Shown one piece after another: positions 3,790-50,736 of a DNA stretch of 64,000 bases (within the stretch, counting starts at the first letter, position 1; every line of letters begins with the position of its first letter). A program made the translations under genes and the position numbers. The notes beneath the pieces were generated by a model. The model was given only the letters and a program-made list of their open reading frames with translations, had not been told where the DNA came from and did no database searches. The DNA comes from a virus. The stretch is from IMG/VR virus record IMGVR_UViG_3300029922_000007, positions 62,001 through 126,000 of that record; one strand, given 5' to 3'.

Positions 3790-4101
3790 ATGACTTTTTC
3801 ACTCAACAATCGACTCGTTCTAGAAGCTTATGTTAAAGACGGTCTCAGGGCCAAAGTTCAAAACGGTATCGCTACTCCTGGCCAACGGGACGGCTTGAAA
3901 GGACTCCGGGTTCTAGTTGGCACAGTTCTTGCCGATGGGCGTCATATCCCCAAGGGCTCTACGGCCTACATCCGAGAAGAAACCTTGCATAATGCTGCTT
4001 GGGCTGCTAAACTCCTTACCTGTGACTTCCTAACCGAAAAGTTCATCTTGGCTAACCTTCAGGATATTGAACTGATCTCAACCCCAGACGAGGCTGCTTA
4101 A
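3790..4101 (+). CDS. Small conserved-type phage protein, possible beta-barrel
   Basis: A 103-residue protein with ACAGGAG before ATG. The pattern LKGLRVLVGTVLADG, IPKGSTAYIREE, ending in an FILANLQDIELI strand, suggests a small beta-barrel. It recalls GroES-like co-chaperonins in layout, but the mobile-loop signature is not visible, so I give no function. It is the first gene after the promoter at 3746. Confidence 0.55.
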   Translation: MTFSLNNRLVLEAYVKDGLRAKVQNGIATPGQRDGLKGLRVLVGTVLADGRHIPKGSTAYIREETLHNAAWAAKLLTCDFLTEKFILANLQDIELISTPDEAA

Positions 4102-4476: not shown

Positions 4477-6431
4477 AGATACTTCGTTTAGGCGATCCCC
4501 ACGTTAAGGTCTCCAACATAAAAGAGTCAGAAGCTCTCATGCAGTTCGTCCTATTCACGGCTACGGAACGAAAAGTGGATCGGATTGAAATTCTCGGAGA
4601 TCAGTTCGACAACCATAGCATTCTGAGACTAGAGGTTCTTGAGTTCTGGCAACGTTGGCTTTGGAACTTAAGCGATAGAGCTTATTCTTTCGATACGTAC
4701 GTTCTAACTGGAAATCACGACATTTCCGGCGATAATACCAATAACTATAGTGCCTTACAGGTTTTTAATGACATAGAGTTCGTAAACATCGTTAGTTCCC
4801 CTGTGGTGGTTGGAGCGATAGGGTATGCACCATATATCCACGATAATGCCAAATTCGTAGAGGAAGCCAATAAACTTGCTGATCAAGGAGCTAAAATCCT
4901 CGTTTCCCATACTACCTACCAGGGGTCCAAGTATGATAATGGTATGTACGCTCCAGATGGGGTAGATCCAGATCTTTTGGATCCTAGGCTTACTCATCTT
5001 ATTTCTGGTCACGTTCACTGTTACTCTTCCGACACAGAGTTTTTGACCGAAACCGGTTGGAAAACTTACGAAAACGTAAAAAGCGAAGACAACTTAATAA
5101 CCTTTGACATAAAAGAAAATTTATTGAAGCGGTCCCCTATTCTTGGACGGATAAGTAAGAATGTAAAAGAAGATTTGATTCGAATAAAAAACCAACACGT
5201 GGACCTTCTTCTTACGGATGGTCATAACGTCATCCTTAAACGTATCTTACCTGAAAGAGAAATAACCGATTTTGAAAAGTATAGGGCAGATAGTATCCCA
5301 GGATATGCATGTAAAATGCCGGTTAGCGCAAGGCTTGACCGTAGCGGAATCCCACTTTCTAACGACGAAATCAGACTTATCGTTTGGCTGATTACTGACG
5401 GAACTATAGAATTCAAAAACAAAGAAACCGAAAGATGTCAGATTAGATGGCACCTAAAAAAAGAACGAAAAATTTCTCGATTATCGAATCTCCTAGATAG
5501 GCTTAACATAAAGTACAGCAAAAATTTACAAAAATCTGGCACAACAAAAATAAATATCCTTTCGGACAACCACTATAAGGATAAGCTGCTGGAATGGTGT
5601 CTTTTAAATAGAACTAAGCAGATCCCCCTCTTCTTAAGAGACATGTCATTCGAACAATTCAACGCATTTATAGAAGAGTACGCTAATACTGATGGCAATT
5701 ACGGAACCTTCAGTGATAGGGTCGTTCAAATATCTACATCGAAAAAGAACGAAGCCGATCTCATACAGGAAATTTGTCACACGAACGGCGCTTCATGCAA
5801 AATAAGAGCTAAAAAGGGTAAGATCTCCCATAACATGCTTTATGTTAACTTAGATAGGGTAGATACAGAATTTGTAAGATGTAATAATGTTACTCGTGAA
5901 TCATACGAAGGACGCGTTGTTTGTTTTACCGTAAAAGAAGGTACTCTCTTAGTAAGAAGGAATGGAATGGTTTCGATATCTGGAAACTGCGAACAAGAGT
6001 TTGGACGCGTTTCCTATCCAGGAACAGCTCGATGGCTTTCTAAAAGTTGCGCTAATCGTCGGAAGGGCATTTGGATGGTCGAACACGACGATGTTACTGG
6101 AGCTATCCTATCTAAAGAATTTATCTCTACGGAAAATGTTTGCCAGCCCATCGTATCCATCAAGTGGAGCGAAGGTGAGGATAAACCTGAGATTCCTGAA
6201 AGTTCTAAGGTTGACATTGAGCTTGTGGGATCTTCCGAGTGGGTTTTAGCGCAGAAAAAGGAACTTAAGGGAACAGTTTCAGTGAGTTCCAAGATCACAG
6301 ACATCAAAAAATCAAAAACTCGTAAGGCCGGAAAATCTCTTTTCGAATTTCTTTCCGAGCACTATCAGGCCTCTCCAGAAAAACGCGACAAACTGATTCA
6401 ATACATGAAGGAGCAAAAATTGCTTGGCTGA
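4473..6431 (+). CDS. sbcD: SbcD/gp47-like DNA repair nuclease subunit, interrupted by an intein
   Basis: The extein has the Mre11/SbcD phosphoesterase motifs: GDPH (7-10), GDQFDN (42-47), GNHD (80-83), SH (145-146) and GHVH (179-182), followed after the intein by CEQEF. With SbcC (8903) it should form the ATP-gated nuclease that opens hairpins and processes double-strand ends; T4 gp46/gp47 do this for recombination-dependent replication. After removal of the 323-residue intein the mature protein would be about 329 residues, normal for phage members. The gene ends in a 3-codon overlap with the next start. Activity before splicing is unlikely because the intein separates GHVH from the C-terminal cap. 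Confidence 0.88.
   Translation: MKILRLGDPHVKVSNIKESEALMQFVLFTATERKVDRIEILGDQFDNHSILRLEVLEFWQRWLWNLSDRAYSFDTYVLTGNHDISGDNTNNYSALQVFNDIEFVNIVSSPVVVGAIGYAPYIHDNAKFVEEANKLADQGAKILVSHTTYQGSKYDNGMYAPDGVDPDLLDPRLTHLISGHVHCYSSDTEFLTETGWKTYENVKSEDNLITFDIKENLLKRSPILGRISKNVKEDLIRIKNQHVDLLLTDGHNVILKRILPEREITDFEKYRADSIPGYACKMPVSARLDRSGIPLSNDEIRLIVWLITDGTIEFKNKETERCQIRWHLKKERKISRLSNLLDRLNIKYSKNLQKSGTTKINILSDNHYKDKLLEWCLLNRTKQIPLFLRDMSFEQFNAFIEEYANTDGNYGTFSDRVVQISTSKKNEADLIQEICHTNGASCKIRAKKGKISHNMLYVNLDRVDTEFVRCNNVTRESYEGRVVCFTVKEGTLLVRRNGMVSISGNCEQEFGRVSYPGTARWLSKSCANRRKGIWMVEHDDVTGAILSKEFISTENVCQPIVSIKWSEGEDKPEIPESSKVDIELVGSSEWVLAQKKELKGTVSVSSKITDIKKSKTRKAGKSLFEFLSEHYQASPEKRDKLIQYMKEQKLLG
5019..5987 (+). 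mobile_element. Intein with LAGLIDADG-type homing endonuclease domain, in SbcD
   Basis: The element begins with Cys183 (CYSSDTEFLTETGWKTYENV is a good splicing block A) and ends VRRNGMVSISGN before the +1 Cys506, matching blocks F and G. Two degenerate LAGLIDADG (DOD) helices lie inside: RLIVWLITDGTI and FIEEYANTDGNYG, each with the acidic residue. The penultimate residue is Gly instead of the usual His, a variant known in some active inteins. Insertion is immediately after GHVH, a metal-binding motif, so unspliced protein should be inactive. The reading frame is intact throughout, so splicing is probably functional. Confidence 0.9.
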
Positions 6432-23549: not shown

Positions 23550-24293
23550 ATGAAGAAGTTCTTTCCGTTTATCCTTCTAATTCTGCTTTCAACCCTAGGA
23601 TATGCGTCCCTAAAGACTCACTTTCATCGTAGCCATAAACCGCACAAGAAGATCCATGTTGCTATAGTGGACACGGGCTTAGATCTGAAAGATCCACGGT
23701 TTAAGGACCATCTCTGTCCTACTGGACATAAGAACTTTGTGCCGGGTGAGACTTTGGACGATATTAACAACCATGGGACTTTTGTGGCTGGACTTATTCA
23801 GAGATATGCGGACAATTCCGACTTCTGTCTGCTGATATATAAGTACTATTCAAATGCTGCCTCTGGAGAACAAAACCTACAACGAGAAGCCTTGGCCATG
23901 CAAGAAGCAGTCTCAAATGGTGCGGATATTGTTAACTATTCCGGAGGCGGACCAGAATTTAATGAAGAGGAGTTTTTGATTATTCGTAACCACCCTAAAA
24001 CTATTTTCGTTGTAGCTGCTGGGAATGAACATCAAAGTCTAGACGTGTCCGGAAATGAGTTCTACCCCGCTTCTTATTTTCTGAAAAATGAGCACGTTGT
24101 TAGCGCCAACGCTATCGATGGATTCCGCCTAGGTTCTTCTAATTGGGGTAGTCGAGTAACGGATTCTGAACTTGGCGATAGTGTTCTATCCTTTCTTCCT
24201 AACGACCTTATAGGGATCATGTCAGGTACTTCGATGGCCTGCGCAATTTTTTCTGGGAAACTTGTTGACAGGATGTCACGAGATGTGCAATAG
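23550..24293 (+). CDS. Exported subtilisin-like serine protease (S8)
   Basis: The signal peptide is at residues 1-20 (KK, then FPFILLILLSTLGYAS). The catalytic triad is D41 (VDTGLD), H75 (NNHGTFVAG) and S228 (SGTSMAC), with oxyanion Asn in AAGNEH. There is no long propeptide, only about 15 basic residues before the domain. The likely site is the periplasm or outside the cell. The role could be in lysis, release, or removing surface proteins; it is the second exported protease in this phage. It has its own promoter. Confidence 0.8.
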   Translation: MKKFFPFILLILLSTLGYASLKTHFHRSHKPHKKIHVAIVDTGLDLKDPRFKDHLCPTGHKNFVPGETLDDINNHGTFVAGLIQRYADNSDFCLLIYKYYSNAASGEQNLQREALAMQEAVSNGADIVNYSGGGPEFNEEEFLIIRNHPKTIFVVAAGNEHQSLDVSGNEFYPASYFLKNEHVVSANAIDGFRLGSSNWGSRVTDSELGDSVLSFLPNDLIGIMSGTSMACAIFSGKLVDRMSRDVQ

Positions 24294-27131: not shown

Positions 27132-27761
27132 ATGATTAAAGAAAAGGAAGTTGAGATTATAGTGTCTCAAAATATGATAAAATACCTAAAAGATTTGGGG
27201 TACGAACTGCCTACCCATATCTATAGAGGAGTAGTGAAAACTATTCAAAACGTTCCATTTACCATAAAAGTAGAGCATTTGAAACCAAAATCTAGTGTAA
27301 AAATTACTAGGATTTGTGACAATTGTAAAGAAGAAAGAATTGTTTCTCGCGCTAAATATAAACCTCTTTGTTTTAAGTGCTCCACCTATAAAATAGGGTT
27401 AGCGCTAACCGGAGAAAATAATGGGATGTTTGGTAAAAAGGGGGAATTATCTCCCAGATGGAATCCAAATATAAGTTCTGAAGAAAAACTAAATAACCGT
27501 AGAAGATTTTATTCAAAAGAGCTTCAACGTTGGTCTAAATGGGTAAAGGAGTTGTACGATTTTACTTGTCAGAAATGTAAGATTAGAGGCGGAGCATTAG
27601 TCTCCCATCACATAGAATCTTGGGATGCTTGTATTGAGTTAAGACACGATATTTCAAACGGTATTTGTTTTTGTAACGAGTGCCACCTGGATTTTCATAG
27701 AATTTATGGAAAAGGTAATAACAGTAGAAAACAGCTGATAGAATTTTTAGAGGAAAAATAA
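27132..27761 (+). CDS. HNH homing endonuclease
   Basis: Two Cys pairs (CDNC and CFKC near 62 and 80) form a zinc finger, followed by a basic linker. The HNH core is CQKCKIRGG, VSHHIESW, then ISNGICFCNECHLDFHRIYG with four Cys and the paired His. It sits two bases after one gene and one base before recA, and its last codons carry the GAGG ribosome-binding site for recA. That exact fit suggests insertion at a conserved junction of the recombination operon. Confidence 0.85.
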   Translation: MIKEKEVEIIVSQNMIKYLKDLGYELPTHIYRGVVKTIQNVPFTIKVEHLKPKSSVKITRICDNCKEERIVSRAKYKPLCFKCSTYKIGLALTGENNGMFGKKGELSPRWNPNISSEEKLNNRRRFYSKELQRWSKWVKELYDFTCQKCKIRGGALVSHHIESWDACIELRHDISNGICFCNECHLDFHRIYGKGNNSRKQLIEFLEEK

Positions 27762-27762
27762 A

Positions 27763-28665
27763 ATGGCAAAAGAACAAGTGTCCTTGGTAGATCGTATTCG
27801 CAATCGTCTGAATGAAAGTAGCGGCAAAGAACTGGTTAAGACTTTCGGTGAGGGGGATGAACTTCTCCAGGTTAAGTCTTGGATTCCTTTGAAGCCTTTC
27901 TTTAAGCTTGGAACTGGTGGGGATGGGTTTCCTTGCGGCCACATCACCCAGATCATCGGTAAGCCAGATTCTGGAAAATCTACCCTCGCGATGGAGGGAA
28001 TGGTTTCATGTCAAAAACTTGGTGGACAAGTATTTCTTCTTGATTCAGAGCATAAGTTCTCTATGGGTCGTCTCAAGTTGATGGGTGGCAAGCCAGAAGA
28101 GGTGATGGTTGTTCAGACCAATACTCTTGAGGAAGCTTGGGACGGATTCGAGAAAATCTTGCAAGAAGTAACTACCCTGCGAGAAGAAGGCGTTAAGACG
28201 CCAATGATGCTCGTGTGGGATTCAGTGGCCGCTTCCGTACCAGAATCGATTATGACTTCGGAATCTGGAGACTTTCATGTGGCAGTTGAAGCTAAGATGA
28301 ACAATAAAAACGTTCGTAGGCTTCGTCAGCTAATTGAGAAGACTGAACTTGCTTGCGTATTCATCAACCACTACTATATGACTCAGCCAAAATCAAAGTA
28401 CGAGCAGGCGGAACTAATTATTAAGGGTGGAGAGGAACTTGCCTTTCTTTCAACTTTGATCTTGCGTACCAAACAGGGCGCTAAGATTATGCGTACGGTT
28501 CTGGGCGAGGAACAACAGATTGGACGTGTTACCCGGTTCTTTGTCCATAAAGGACACTTCCATGGTCGGACCATTACAAAGGATGTCAATGTAGTGGACC
28601 TTGGAATCTTGGAGAGTGCGGAAGAATTGGCAGCATATCAAAAATCTCTTAGAGGAACACTTTAA
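27763..28665 (+). CDS. recA: RecA-like recombinase
   Basis: Walker A is GKPDSGKST (66-74), and Walker B is MLVWDSVAA; INHYYM corresponds to the conserved motif before L2, and L2-like GGEELAF follows. At 300 residues it is shorter than bacterial RecA (about 350), missing most of the C-terminal domain, but the ATPase core is complete. It would drive strand exchange with the ssDNA-binding protein upstream. The non-coding RNA follows within a few bases of the stop. Confidence 0.85.
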   Translation: MAKEQVSLVDRIRNRLNESSGKELVKTFGEGDELLQVKSWIPLKPFFKLGTGGDGFPCGHITQIIGKPDSGKSTLAMEGMVSCQKLGGQVFLLDSEHKFSMGRLKLMGGKPEEVMVVQTNTLEEAWDGFEKILQEVTTLREEGVKTPMMLVWDSVAASVPESIMTSESGDFHVAVEAKMNNKNVRRLRQLIEKTELACVFINHYYMTQPKSKYEQAELIIKGGEELAFLSTLILRTKQGAKIMRTVLGEEQQIGRVTRFFVHKGHFHGRTITKDVNVVDLGILESAEELAAYQKSLRGTL

Positions 28666-28667
28666 GG

Positions 28668-29160
28668 GTTGGTCGGGTCGCTACCGGCCTGAACTGAGGA
28701 CTTGCAGGTTAGCTCAGCTAGATTGACAAATCCTGCACATTTTTAAAGTTTTAAGATAGGGCGAGCACAAAAGGGCGAAACAATGTTCCTCTCCGCAACT
28801 CGTGCAATGGCGAAATGACTACTTCGTGAGGAAGTAAGGTACAGCGGAATTAAGCCGCGTGGGCAATCCCCAAGTCAGAGTAGGTCTCAGTCTTATCTTA
28901 AAAAGGGTTCCCAGGTTGCCCGAATCGATCTGGTCTAAGGAAGTTGCTAACAGTTGAAGCTTAGACGACGTGGGAACCGAGTCGTAAATCGGACCAAAAT
29001 TAAGCGAAACCATTAGTGATACGGGTGGGAGTAGCATGTGCCATGAAAGACCTTAGAATTGCTGTACACAGTGACCCTCTAAGAAAATCTTCCTCTGGCT
29101 TCGGGTAGGCGCTCATGGTAGTATGGGGTTAAAGCACAGGCCTGTTTGGCAGCCTACTTT
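28668..29160 (+). ncRNA. Large structured non-coding RNA (about 490 nt), family not assigned
   Basis: No credible frame lies in this stretch on the + strand. Many perfect or near-perfect helices are present: GGTCGG/CCGGCC (28670-28688), TGCAGG/CCTGCA (about 28703-28737), TACTTC/GAAGTA (28820-28836), GCGG/CCGC (28844-28858), GGTTCCCA/TGGGAACC (28907-28978), GTCTAAG/CTTAGAC (28933-28967), CTGT/ACAG (about 29063-29072), and GTAGGC/GCCTAC (29105-29157). GGGCAA (28861-28866) can pair with TTGCCC (28915-28920) across the GGTTCCCA helix, giving a pseudoknot. GCGAAA recurs three times (28775, 28810, 29004), perhaps as loops. It ends in TTTTTT. Size and phage location recall ROOL or GOLLD RNAs, but I cannot match it to either. 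It is unlike group I or II introns or RNase P. Confidence 0.75.
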
Positions 29161-29176
29161 TTAAAAAGGAGTTTAT

Positions 29177-29359
29177 GTGAGCAAGTTTAGGAATTGGCTT
29201 ATAAATAATTTTACAGATCTAACCAATAAACTATCTCCTTGTAAATGCTGTCCTAATCGAACTGAGCTTAGCGTATGTCGCAATAAAGCTCTTAAAGAGA
29301 ATTGGGAAAGTATCCAAAGACTTGTAGCTCCATTTCATAAAAGGGAAAACATCAAATGA
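29177..29359 (+). CDS. Small Cys-containing protein
   Basis: 60 residues, GTG start behind AAAAAGGAG. CKCC with a later Cys (CRN) could bind a metal. It follows the structured RNA and overlaps the next gene by 4 bp. Unknown function. Confidence 0.5.
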   Translation: MSKFRNWLINNFTDLTNKLSPCKCCPNRTELSVCRNKALKENWESIQRLVAPFHKRENIK

Positions 29360-30264
29360 ACTACGGCACTATAGAAAGACCTAAAGCTCCTGATAAAAAG
29401 ATCAATACTTCCAATGACTTCGAACTCTGTTTGTTGCGCCACCAATACTTCCGCAGAGCTAACTACAATCCTACTGAAGCTGAAATGCAGCCATTCATGC
29501 GAATCGTAGAACATTTCACTAAAAACACCTTCTTCACCTATTTCAATCTCTTTCGCGCTGTTGGCCTATACCACGACGACGTGCTTAACATTGGTAGAGT
29601 GCATCTGGTTTCATTTCTAGGCCTGTATTCTCTAGATCGCACTCCCGATAAGAAACTTGCTTTTGAACAGATTTTTACCAATAATAATTTCAAGTTGCCT
29701 GAAGAAAAGAACTACCTAGATAAGAATAAGGCGAATTTCACCCTATTCTTTAAGCAACGAATGGAAGATCTAGTACGGGTTTGTCGTCAAAAGGTCAGGA
29801 ATATTAAAGGACAACCCTCTGAAGAGTTCATCGTTTTCTGTGGAGAAGCTAAGCCTCCAAGGTACCATAGGAAGATTTTGAGAGAGCATTCGGAATTAGG
29901 ATATAGGAAGATCGATTTTGCCGTATTTAAAAGTATCCGTAAAAAGGCAAACGTAAATTTTGACGCCACTATCTTTGAATTCGCAGGTCTCTGGTACGTA
30001 GCCATTCCTTTGGATCAAAAACCGCTCGCCTTAGAGGATATCGTTGGATCTGGAGCAGATCCATATCAAAACCAACATAATAGGCAACCGAACGAACTTT
30101 TGGAGGAAAAAGAGTTTGAAACTCTGTCCACTCTATTCCAAGGTAAGACCAACGACAAAAAGGTGAAGGTCATCCGAAAATTCATTGCAAAAAACAAGAA
30201 CTCAGGGCAGTATAGGGAAGAGATCTATACCGCTAGAAAATTGCTTCGCGAACTTGGGGCTTAA
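29356..30264 (+). CDS. Possible sigma-factor-like protein
   Basis: 302 residues. Residues about 42-95 (MQPFMRIVEHFTK, HDDVLNIGRVHLVSFLGLYSL) recall sigma region 2.1-2.2 (EDL-x-Q-x-G-x-x-G-L-x-x-A), and FTLFFKQRMEDLVRVCRQK (128-147) is a plausible continuation. The last 60 residues (FQGKTNDKKVKVIRKFIAKN, EEIYTARKLLREL) might hold a region 4-like helix bundle. The similarity is weak. If correct the phage has two sigma-like proteins. An alternative is a different helical replication protein. Confidence 0.4.
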   Translation: MNYGTIERPKAPDKKINTSNDFELCLLRHQYFRRANYNPTEAEMQPFMRIVEHFTKNTFFTYFNLFRAVGLYHDDVLNIGRVHLVSFLGLYSLDRTPDKKLAFEQIFTNNNFKLPEEKNYLDKNKANFTLFFKQRMEDLVRVCRQKVRNIKGQPSEEFIVFCGEAKPPRYHRKILREHSELGYRKIDFAVFKSIRKKANVNFDATIFEFAGLWYVAIPLDQKPLALEDIVGSGADPYQNQHNRQPNELLEEKEFETLSTLFQGKTNDKKVKVIRKFIAKNKNSGQYREEIYTARKLLRELGA

Positions 30265-49229: not shown

Positions 49230-49420
49230 TTAAGTTTTGTTGGCTGTGCAGCAAGAAACTCTGGGGTCGTCACAAAGAAGTCTTGATAATTGATTACTAT
49301 CCTAGGACCCTCCACAAGTCTTGTGCTAAGGACATTAAGCGAGAATCTGACTACCAGAAGGACAGAGATGGAAGCTATCACTCCATGCATTGGGAGCCTA
49401 TGGGCGCTTTTACGGATTAG
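49226..49420 (+). CDS. Small zinc-finger-like protein
   Basis: 64 residues. CWLCSKKLWG (5-14) with HKSC (30-33) gives a Cys/His zinc site. Coupled to the lytic enzyme. Unknown function. Confidence 0.45.
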   Translation: MIKFCWLCSKKLWGRHKEVLIIDYYPRTLHKSCAKDIKRESDYQKDRDGSYHSMHWEPMGAFTD

Positions 49421-49422
49421 GA

Positions 49423-49477
49423 TTGACTCTTTAAGGTAGGTGTGATACTGTCTTTTTAGGTAGAAAGCCTAGAAAGA
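49423..49477 (+). promoter_or_regulatory. sigma-70-type promoter starting inside a ribosome-binding-site hairpin
   Basis: TTGACT (49423-49428), 17 bp, TACTGT (49446-49451). TCTTTTTAGG (49451-49460) pairs with CCTAGAAAGA (49468-49477) in a 10-bp stem with a 7-base loop. The AAAGAG site ahead of GTG 49486 lies in the 3' arm. Transcripts starting about 49458 would free it; read-through ones would hide it. Confidence 0.5.
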
Positions 49478-49485
49478 GTTGATCC

Positions 49486-50736
49486 GTGGGAGTAAGTAGG
49501 ATATCTGATAAACAACATTACGAAAACTTAAAAGATTGTGTTGAAAAACGCGGTGGTAAGCTAGTATCTGAAAAATACTTAGGATCTAGAATAAAGCTAA
49601 CCATAGACTGCGGTAAGGGGCACGAATGGGACTCTATACCCCGAAATATAATCGTTCTGAAGTCTTGGTGTCCGTTTTGCGCTAAAACCAGAACTCCTGG
49701 GATTGAAGGTATGCAGGAATTGGCTCAAGGTCAGAATCTTGTGTGCTTAAATAAATTTAAAAAGGGGGAAGAAAACACTTTTCAGTGGAAATGTTTGTTG
49801 TGTGGCGACACCTTCATAAGAAGGTTGAGCCATATTAGAAGCAGACCCGGTTGTTCCAATTGTAAGGCTAGAAATTTAGGCGAAAGGGTTTGTAGGCTAT
49901 CTTTTGAGGCAATCTTTGAATCGAAATTCCCCAATACACACATGTCATGGCTTATAAACAATAACGGAAATACGCTAACCCTAGATGGGGTTAATACCGA
50001 TCTTAAGATAGCATTTGAGCATCAAGGAGAACAGCATTTTAAATTTAAAAAACACTTTCATAGAAAGGAAGGCGCTCTAGAAGATATTATACGGAGGGAT
50101 AATTTGAAGATTAAGCTTTGTGAGGAAAATGGATATAAATTAGCAATAGTGCCAGACCTAATCTGTGTAGGAAAAATATTTTCCTCTATAGAGTCAGGAC
50201 AATCCCTTATCCCCATTCCCGAACCGATTTTATTGGCCTGTAAGAACGCTGGAATAATACTACCAGACAGCGTAAGATCGATACTGTTGGACTTAAAGAA
50301 AATTACCGGAAAAGAAAGCGATCAAATACTGGAATCTCTCAAAATTCATGCAAAAAATGGTGGGTTTAGTATACCTGACTGTCTTATTTATAGCATGCAC
50401 GATACTCCAATAAAAGCTATTTGCTATAAGTGTGAGTACGAGTGGAACACAACACCTACAAGAATAAAAGTGGGAAAGGCGTGTCCTAGATGTGCTGGGA
50501 CGTTAAGGCTAGAAATAGGTTGGTTCAAACAAGAAGCGGAAAGGCGCGGCGATGTCCTTTTATCTACTCAGTACAACGGCCTATCGAGCTTTATCGAAGT
50601 AAAATGCGGCAAATGTAGCCATATTAGGAAAGTGCTAGCGCAAAGCTTTAGAAAGGGGCATGGTTGCAAAAAGTGTTCAGATAAAGAAGGCGCCAAGAAA
50701 AGATTAGCAAATCAGCTCAGGTCAAGAGGCCAATAA
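49486..50736 (+). CDS. Homing endonuclease, Vsr-like core flanked by treble-clef repeats
   Basis: 416 residues from GTG. TLTLDGVN (163-170) then IAFEHQGEQHF (175-185) is the Vsr/EDxHD core, but the expected first Glu is replaced by Thr165. Two zinc treble-clefs (CGKGHEW..CPFC and CLLCGDTF..CSNC) precede it, and two more (CYKCEYEW..CPRC, CGKC..CKKC) follow. It is related to the 31917 gene. It overlaps the tail-tube-like gene by 25 bp and has a hairpin-controlled start. Confidence 0.75.
   Translation: MGVSRISDKQHYENLKDCVEKRGGKLVSEKYLGSRIKLTIDCGKGHEWDSIPRNIIVLKSWCPFCAKTRTPGIEGMQELAQGQNLVCLNKFKKGEENTFQWKCLLCGDTFIRRLSHIRSRPGCSNCKARNLGERVCRLSFEAIFESKFPNTHMSWLINNNGNTLTLDGVNTDLKIAFEHQGEQHFKFKKHFHRKEGALEDIIRRDNLKIKLCEENGYKLAIVPDLICVGKIFSSIESGQSLIPIPEPILLACKNAGIILPDSVRSILLDLKKITGKESDQILESLKIHAKNGGFSIPDCLIYSMHDTPIKAICYKCEYEWNTTPTRIKVGKACPRCAGTLRLEIGWFKQEAERRGDVLLSTQYNGLSSFIEVKCGKCSHIRKVLAQSFRKGHGCKKCSDKEGAKKRLANQLRSRGQ

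Follow-up and report, generated by a model that had tools for sequence, protein, structure and literature searches.

Phages related to the one studied here appear to reserve the interval between a recA-type gene and a downstream gene (gene X), here called the recA-X slot, for an accessory structured RNA. In most of the relatives examined, this RNA belongs to a family that is absent from Rfam and would act in trans, while in the window it would have diverged or been replaced; taken as a whole, this reading is given an even chance. The window is the 64-kb stretch of DNA that was analyzed, taken from a 166-kb virus record (positions 62001-126000). Comparison among phages establishes the predicted helices of the family, its RNA strand, its wide spread in phages, its occurrence as genes of its own at other sites, and the placement of putative promoters at the outer helix, P1. 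An earlier note, made from the letters of the window, had proposed that a structured, non-coding RNA follows recA, and this proposal is supported mainly by the syntenic relatives, in which covariation is strong.

The recA-X slot in related phages

About two dozen related phages were reached via the proteins of the region. In most of them a non-coding RNA of ~80-430 nt, consisting of at least one unit, lies between the recA-type gene and gene X, usually immediately upstream of gene X. At least 10 phages other than the one under study carry such an RNA in this position, and most of these RNAs form one family. Gene X was found without the RNA in L047, L050, and L058; the phages of the latter two have family copies at other genome sites. 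Slot RNAs falling outside the covariance model of the family (R1) were also found, for example in L016, L027, L031, L039, and L043. Six viral contigs (L158-L163) carry a second type of slot RNA (TTGGGA..CTAAACAAYCCGAG).

The slot RNA of L068 contains a tRNA-like domain (4489-4555) which scores 42.6 bits with the Rfam tRNA model (cut-off 29) and in which a four-base loop replaces the anticodon loop. When 29 loci were searched with R1, no match was obtained in L068. In the P3 arm of L023, a clear member of the family, lies a T-arm-like hairpin with a weak Rfam match to the tmRNA T-arm. Directly after the family RNA of L026, ARAGORN reports a tRNA-Ala (CGC) at 3991-4078, a call not backed by the Rfam tRNA model. 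In another viral contig, L137, a family RNA is located 18 nt upstream of a different RecA-like gene.

A covarying RNA family absent from Rfam

Members of the family are ~120-280 nt in size and share a P1-P2-P3-C architecture. P1 is formed by pairing of the 5' and 3' ends of the RNA. It is followed by P2 and P3, which are parted by a conserved internal loop (GGRAAGCU/UGGAGA), and then by variable arms. The terminal hairpin (C), with the loop GUNGCG, lies immediately 5' of the P1 3' strand, and the family core reads GUGGRAAGCUGUGG ... CUGGAGACACG. An alanine anticodon can be read in the GUNGCG loop. Most loops, however, leave 8 rather than 7 bases unpaired, so the reading of this hairpin as an anticodon arm is treated as a lead alone.

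In a composite of ten relatives, mostly from recA-X slots, 97% of cells were paired (31-46% when slid) and both sides had changed in 19 of 21 pairs. Because the pieces of this composite were cut by hand or eye, an independent set was needed. A two-part pattern located the family in 48 viral (phage) contigs, and 36 of the members found in this way were aligned by MAFFT with no structural guidance. In this alignment 98.3% of cells were paired, with 156 double-change cells (slid, 31-45%), and none of 500 shuffles reached the observed pairing. The bases of P2 and P3 are largely fixed by the search pattern, and therefore the independent evidence is that of P1 and the terminal hairpin, whose boundaries were picked by a script favoring long helices within a few bases. 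Among 61 distinct members, in an alignment fitted to the covariance model, 96.4% of cells were paired, 287 cells were double changes, and 21 of 22 pairs had changed on both sides. The covariation of the predicted family helices is overwhelming.

The paired cells hold 26 G-U against 5 A-C combinations, which fixes the RNA strand. Ranking of column pairs by mutual information placed the pairs of P1, P3, and the terminal hairpin on top, followed by a single non-helical coupling. This coupling links the purine of GUGG-R-AAG to the base preceding the terminal hairpin (columns 18 and 338), and after dereplication 46 of 50 sequences conform to it (permutation p < 5e-5).

R1 recovers most of the recA-X slot RNAs, with scores from 99.9 bits (L023) to 16.5 bits (L054). 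Of 14 related phages, 10 contain copies detected by R1, with a maximum of three per phage and with some arranged as tandem doublets ~15-20 nt apart (G021, 75039-75453; G026, 49398-49856; G028, 92952-93320). A search for the core in the related phage records located copies elsewhere in their genomes, and many family members lie outside the recA-X slot.

Rfam 15 at gathering thresholds returned ordinary tRNAs alone for 20 family loci, and at gathering and E-value thresholds it gave no match for the RNAs themselves in the window and relatives. A BLAST search of 50,697 phage records with three family members as queries gave nothing useful and no sequenced isolate with the core. In host genomes, one of 144 relatives of a bog MAG had a match, which was the bog MAG itself. 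A literature search by topic or core sequence, whose scope left out bioRxiv preprints and many subscription journals, found no paper. No family of this conserved shape is present in Rfam 15.

The slot of the window and its neighbors

In the window the stretch 28666-29170 is non-coding and lies between an intact recA gene and gene X; by position it corresponds to the slot of the relatives (Table 1). As had been claimed in the earlier note, there is no reading frame on the + strand after recA: no ORF of at least 50 aa separates the stop of recA (28665) from the GTG at 29177. The 60-aa protein that begins there has no family match in Pfam or PHROG.

Table 1. Features of the recA-X region, in window coordinates unless indicated
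Feature	Position	Strand	Description
recA / UvsX-like recombinase gene	27763..28665	+	intact; PHROG_97 UvsX 3.1e-39, Pfam RecA 4.5e-24; upstream border of the slot
Unit 1	28660..28748	+	closed by CUUUAAGGGU/AUUUUUAAAG; overlaps recA stop codon
Hairpin GGUCGG-GUCGCUA-CCGGCC	28671..28689	+	loop similar to that of the family GUNGCG hairpin
Unit 2	28749..28903	+	outer helix of 14 bp (28749-28762/28890-28903); candidate for a diverged family member
Degraded terminal (C) hairpin CAGAGUAGGUCU	28876..28887	+	immediately 5' of P1 3' strand
Unit 3	28899..29166	+	closed by UAAAAAG 28899-28905 / CUUUUUA 29157-29163
Extra block of the twin phage	between 29001 and 29002; L002 6240-6351	+	112 nt inside unit 3
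60-aa protein	29177..29359	+	CxCCP..RT..SVCR (CxCC..C); relative precedes gene X in L026
Gene X	29356..30264	+	downstream neighbor of the slot; possibly sigma-like; 29-sequence alignment A6

Of the two neighbors named in the earlier note, recA was confirmed, and the sigma-like character of gene X found weak backing. An AlphaFold2 model of gene X (pLDDT 84) was matched to two sigma region 2 chains, 5xj0_F (Z 5.6, 73 residues, 2.8 A) and 8qu6_F (Z 5.2), at ranks 2 and 3 and over residues ~42-150, with both Z values too low to tell a shared helical fold from chance similarity. No match to gene X was found in Pfam, PHROG, or PDB sequences, nor by Foldseek at E 0.001 or better. The modeled protein resembles sigma region 2 weakly. 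A distant homologue of 541 aa is present in Myxococcus phage Mx1.

Directly upstream of recA, an HNH endonuclease-like gene (27132-27761) with a weak NUMOD3 match likely encodes a homing endonuclease. Farther upstream, subtilisin-like motifs (VAIVDTGLD, GTSMA) were spotted by eye in the ORF 23550-24293. The only tRNA that ARAGORN reports in the window is a tRNA-Ser at 90-176.

Three putative tandem units in place of one large RNA

The idea of a single ornate RNA of ~490 nt, as put forward in the earlier note, is not supported. The whole stretch folds at -149.1 kcal/mol, against -151.2 kcal/mol for dinucleotide shuffles (z 0.31), and 60 of 100 shuffles equal or exceed it in stability. A division into three tandem closed units, obtained by cutting at strong local closing helices, describes the stretch better, and the single-unit fold was dropped because its long-range helices compete with these. 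Fold z-scores are -1.53 for unit 1 and -1.75 for unit 2 (for either unit, 13 of 200 shuffles do as well) and 0.13 for unit 3 as it stands in the window; none is significant alone.

Within unit 1, GCAGG..CCTGCACAT is similar to the second RNA of L003, and the hairpin listed in Table 1 is the only one with a GUNGC loop found in the region. The 14-bp helix of unit 2 is the strongest single feature of the stretch. Its CAGAGUAGGUCU was aligned to the family CAGAGUNGCGNCUG both by model R1 and by script. Unit 3 contains GGUUCCCA/UGGGAACC.

Other elements that had been noticed in the letters are present, although their structural reading changes. The two pairs of the proposed pseudoknot, GGGCAA 28861-28866 / TTGCCC 28916-28921 and GGTTCCCA 28907-28914 / TGGGAACC 28971-28978, exist and would cross, but they would join two units each having its own closing helix and are without comparative support. 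The word GCGAAA occurs three times, though not as a hairpin loop in the predicted folds. The terminal T-run lies at 29158-29162, with no terminator hairpin before it on the + strand.

No match to the window RNA was found by blastn among the 50,697 phage records, and a 20-base exact piece of it matches a twin phage (L002) alone. Blastn shows L002 and the window to be 100% identical in the 6239 and 3516 bp that flank the extra block, and another 19,901 bp are also 100% identical; the 112-nt block is the sole difference in ~29.7 kb between the window record and L002. Collapse of the assembly at a repeat is unlikely, since the joints have only ~1 base in common. With the block, unit 3 of the twin folds with a z of -0.90 as compared to 0.13 without it, an indication that the window carries a deletion form.

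Membership of unit 2

Unit 2 has the outer architecture of the family, a 14-bp P1 and a degraded terminal hairpin, without the conserved core. The core CACTGGAGACACG, allowing one mismatch, is absent from the whole 166-kb record; R1 gave no match in that record at E 0.1 and none in the window by default search. With filters off, over 651 nt, R1 matches best at 28754-28898 (4.1 bits, E 0.14). Taken by itself this match lacks significance; it coincides with the unit drawn by hand from its closing helix. A scan for a P1 of at least 11 bp plus a terminal-hairpin-like word, designed after the unit 2 candidate had been seen, returned three places on both strands of the 64-kb window, the one in unit 2 having the longest helix. 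Since it fails the core test, unit 2 was not filed as a member; that it is a far-diverged copy lacking the core has about even odds.

The stretch could instead be unrelated to the family, with another RNA or a decaying spacer having replaced the member in the slot, and this is held to be only slightly short of an even chance. Such a replacement would agree with the missing core motif, with a whole-stretch fold no better than that of shuffles, with the twin being the only homologue found, and with the other slot RNAs that likewise fall outside R1. Against it stands a 14-bp helix accompanied by a terminal-hairpin-like word at the expected place, just before the 3' strand.

Transcription and possible function

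In 19 of 38 upstream regions, -10 words lie 15-21 nt upstream of the core (shuffles: mean 9.2, maximum 18 in 2000), a placement from which transcription would start at P1. L093 and L097 have a TTGACA/TATAAT-type promoter at the right distance.

In the preferred reading, the slot between recA and gene X would be retained for an accessory structured RNA acting in trans, as a compact RNA or an RNA-protein particle. A putative docking of the internal loop with the base of the terminal hairpin, which the non-helical coupling supports, would expose the conserved loops to a partner and leave the arms free to vary. The tRNA-like domain of one slot RNA outside the family, the L068 RNA that R1 does not score as a member, hints weakly that the partner may be linked to tRNA or the translation machinery. 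The window would then hold three tandem units in the slot, the middle one possibly far-diverged. Action in trans is favored by the predicted promoters, by copies facing convergent genes, by phages with gene X but no RNA, and by the unrelated genes downstream of copies.

A broader version is tentative and less likely than not. It posits a widespread, autonomously transcribed class of phage RNA, often in doublets and with large or tRNA-like inserts, which would act in trans on host machinery, and of which the window would carry a diverged three-unit array that loses and gains entire RNA modules between phages identical elsewhere.

Rather unlikely is a cis-acting leader, a 5' UTR controlling transcription or translation of the next gene in the manner of a riboswitch or attenuator whose switch is P1. 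P1 does always pair even though its sequence varies; a T-run follows it in 19 of 39 copies; a ribosome-binding-site-like word and start codon come just after the 3' end in 18 of 39; and in the recA-X slot the RNA mostly stands right before gene X. Start codons close to about half of the copies also fit a leader role. A leader is at odds with downstream genes that are unrelated between phages, with copies that face convergent genes (L107, L129, L138), and with the phages in which gene X lacks the RNA, two of which keep copies elsewhere.

It is improbable that the internal loop is the catalytic core of a self-cleaving ribozyme or processing element releasing RNAs from phage transcripts. The small, highly conserved core, the sequence-variable closing helix, the tandem doublets, and the intergenic position would suit such an element, but the predicted promoters start the RNA at P1, making cleavage needless for the 5' end, the variable arms are unlike those of known small ribozymes, and no Rfam ribozyme is matched.

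Size and phage context aside, there is next to nothing to suggest a known large phage RNA, an intron, a tmRNA, or a frame-shifted gene: the Rfam search proposed in the earlier note gave no GOLLD, ROOL, or other match for the stretch at gathering in the 64 kb and, at E up to 10 over 841 nt, a sub-threshold human lncRNA match alone; group I and II introns have no Rfam match, recA ends at its own stop, and recA and gene X are intact with nothing split or interrupted and no + frame between them; and neither ARAGORN nor Rfam reports a tmRNA or tRNA in the region. The likeness to GOLLD and ROOL drawn in the earlier note is kept as an analogy alone.

Comparison with known systems

Phages were already known to carry structured RNAs without an assigned function; the family itself is new relative to Rfam 15. 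Structured RNAs that covary so strongly, are so widespread, and yet are missing from Rfam deserve attention in their own right. The family supplies a covariance model, predicted 5' and 3' ends, a testable tertiary contact, and many natural variants, and with these a host partner can be sought directly. For the window the gain is smaller, namely the view of a slot with rapid turnover of RNA modules.

Like riboswitches and leader RNAs, the family has a conserved inner core, a sequence-variable P1, and often a start codon nearby; unlike them, it has copies in convergent contexts and predicted promoters of its own, and it lacks a conserved downstream gene and an Rfam match. ROOL, a phage or prophage RNA whose function is unknown (PMC12286853), is comparable in both respects, whereas the family is much smaller, has another core and closing helix, and is not matched by the ROOL model. 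GOLLD and ROOL were found to form RNA nanocages (PMC12286853). The family differs from GOLLD in its size (~120-280 nt as opposed to often >800), its core, and the lack of an Rfam match. Both are phage-encoded structured RNAs of unknown function with more and less conserved parts, and the linker of GOLLD, which sometimes contains tRNAs (PMC12286853), has its counterpart in the tRNA-like domain of the L068 slot RNA.
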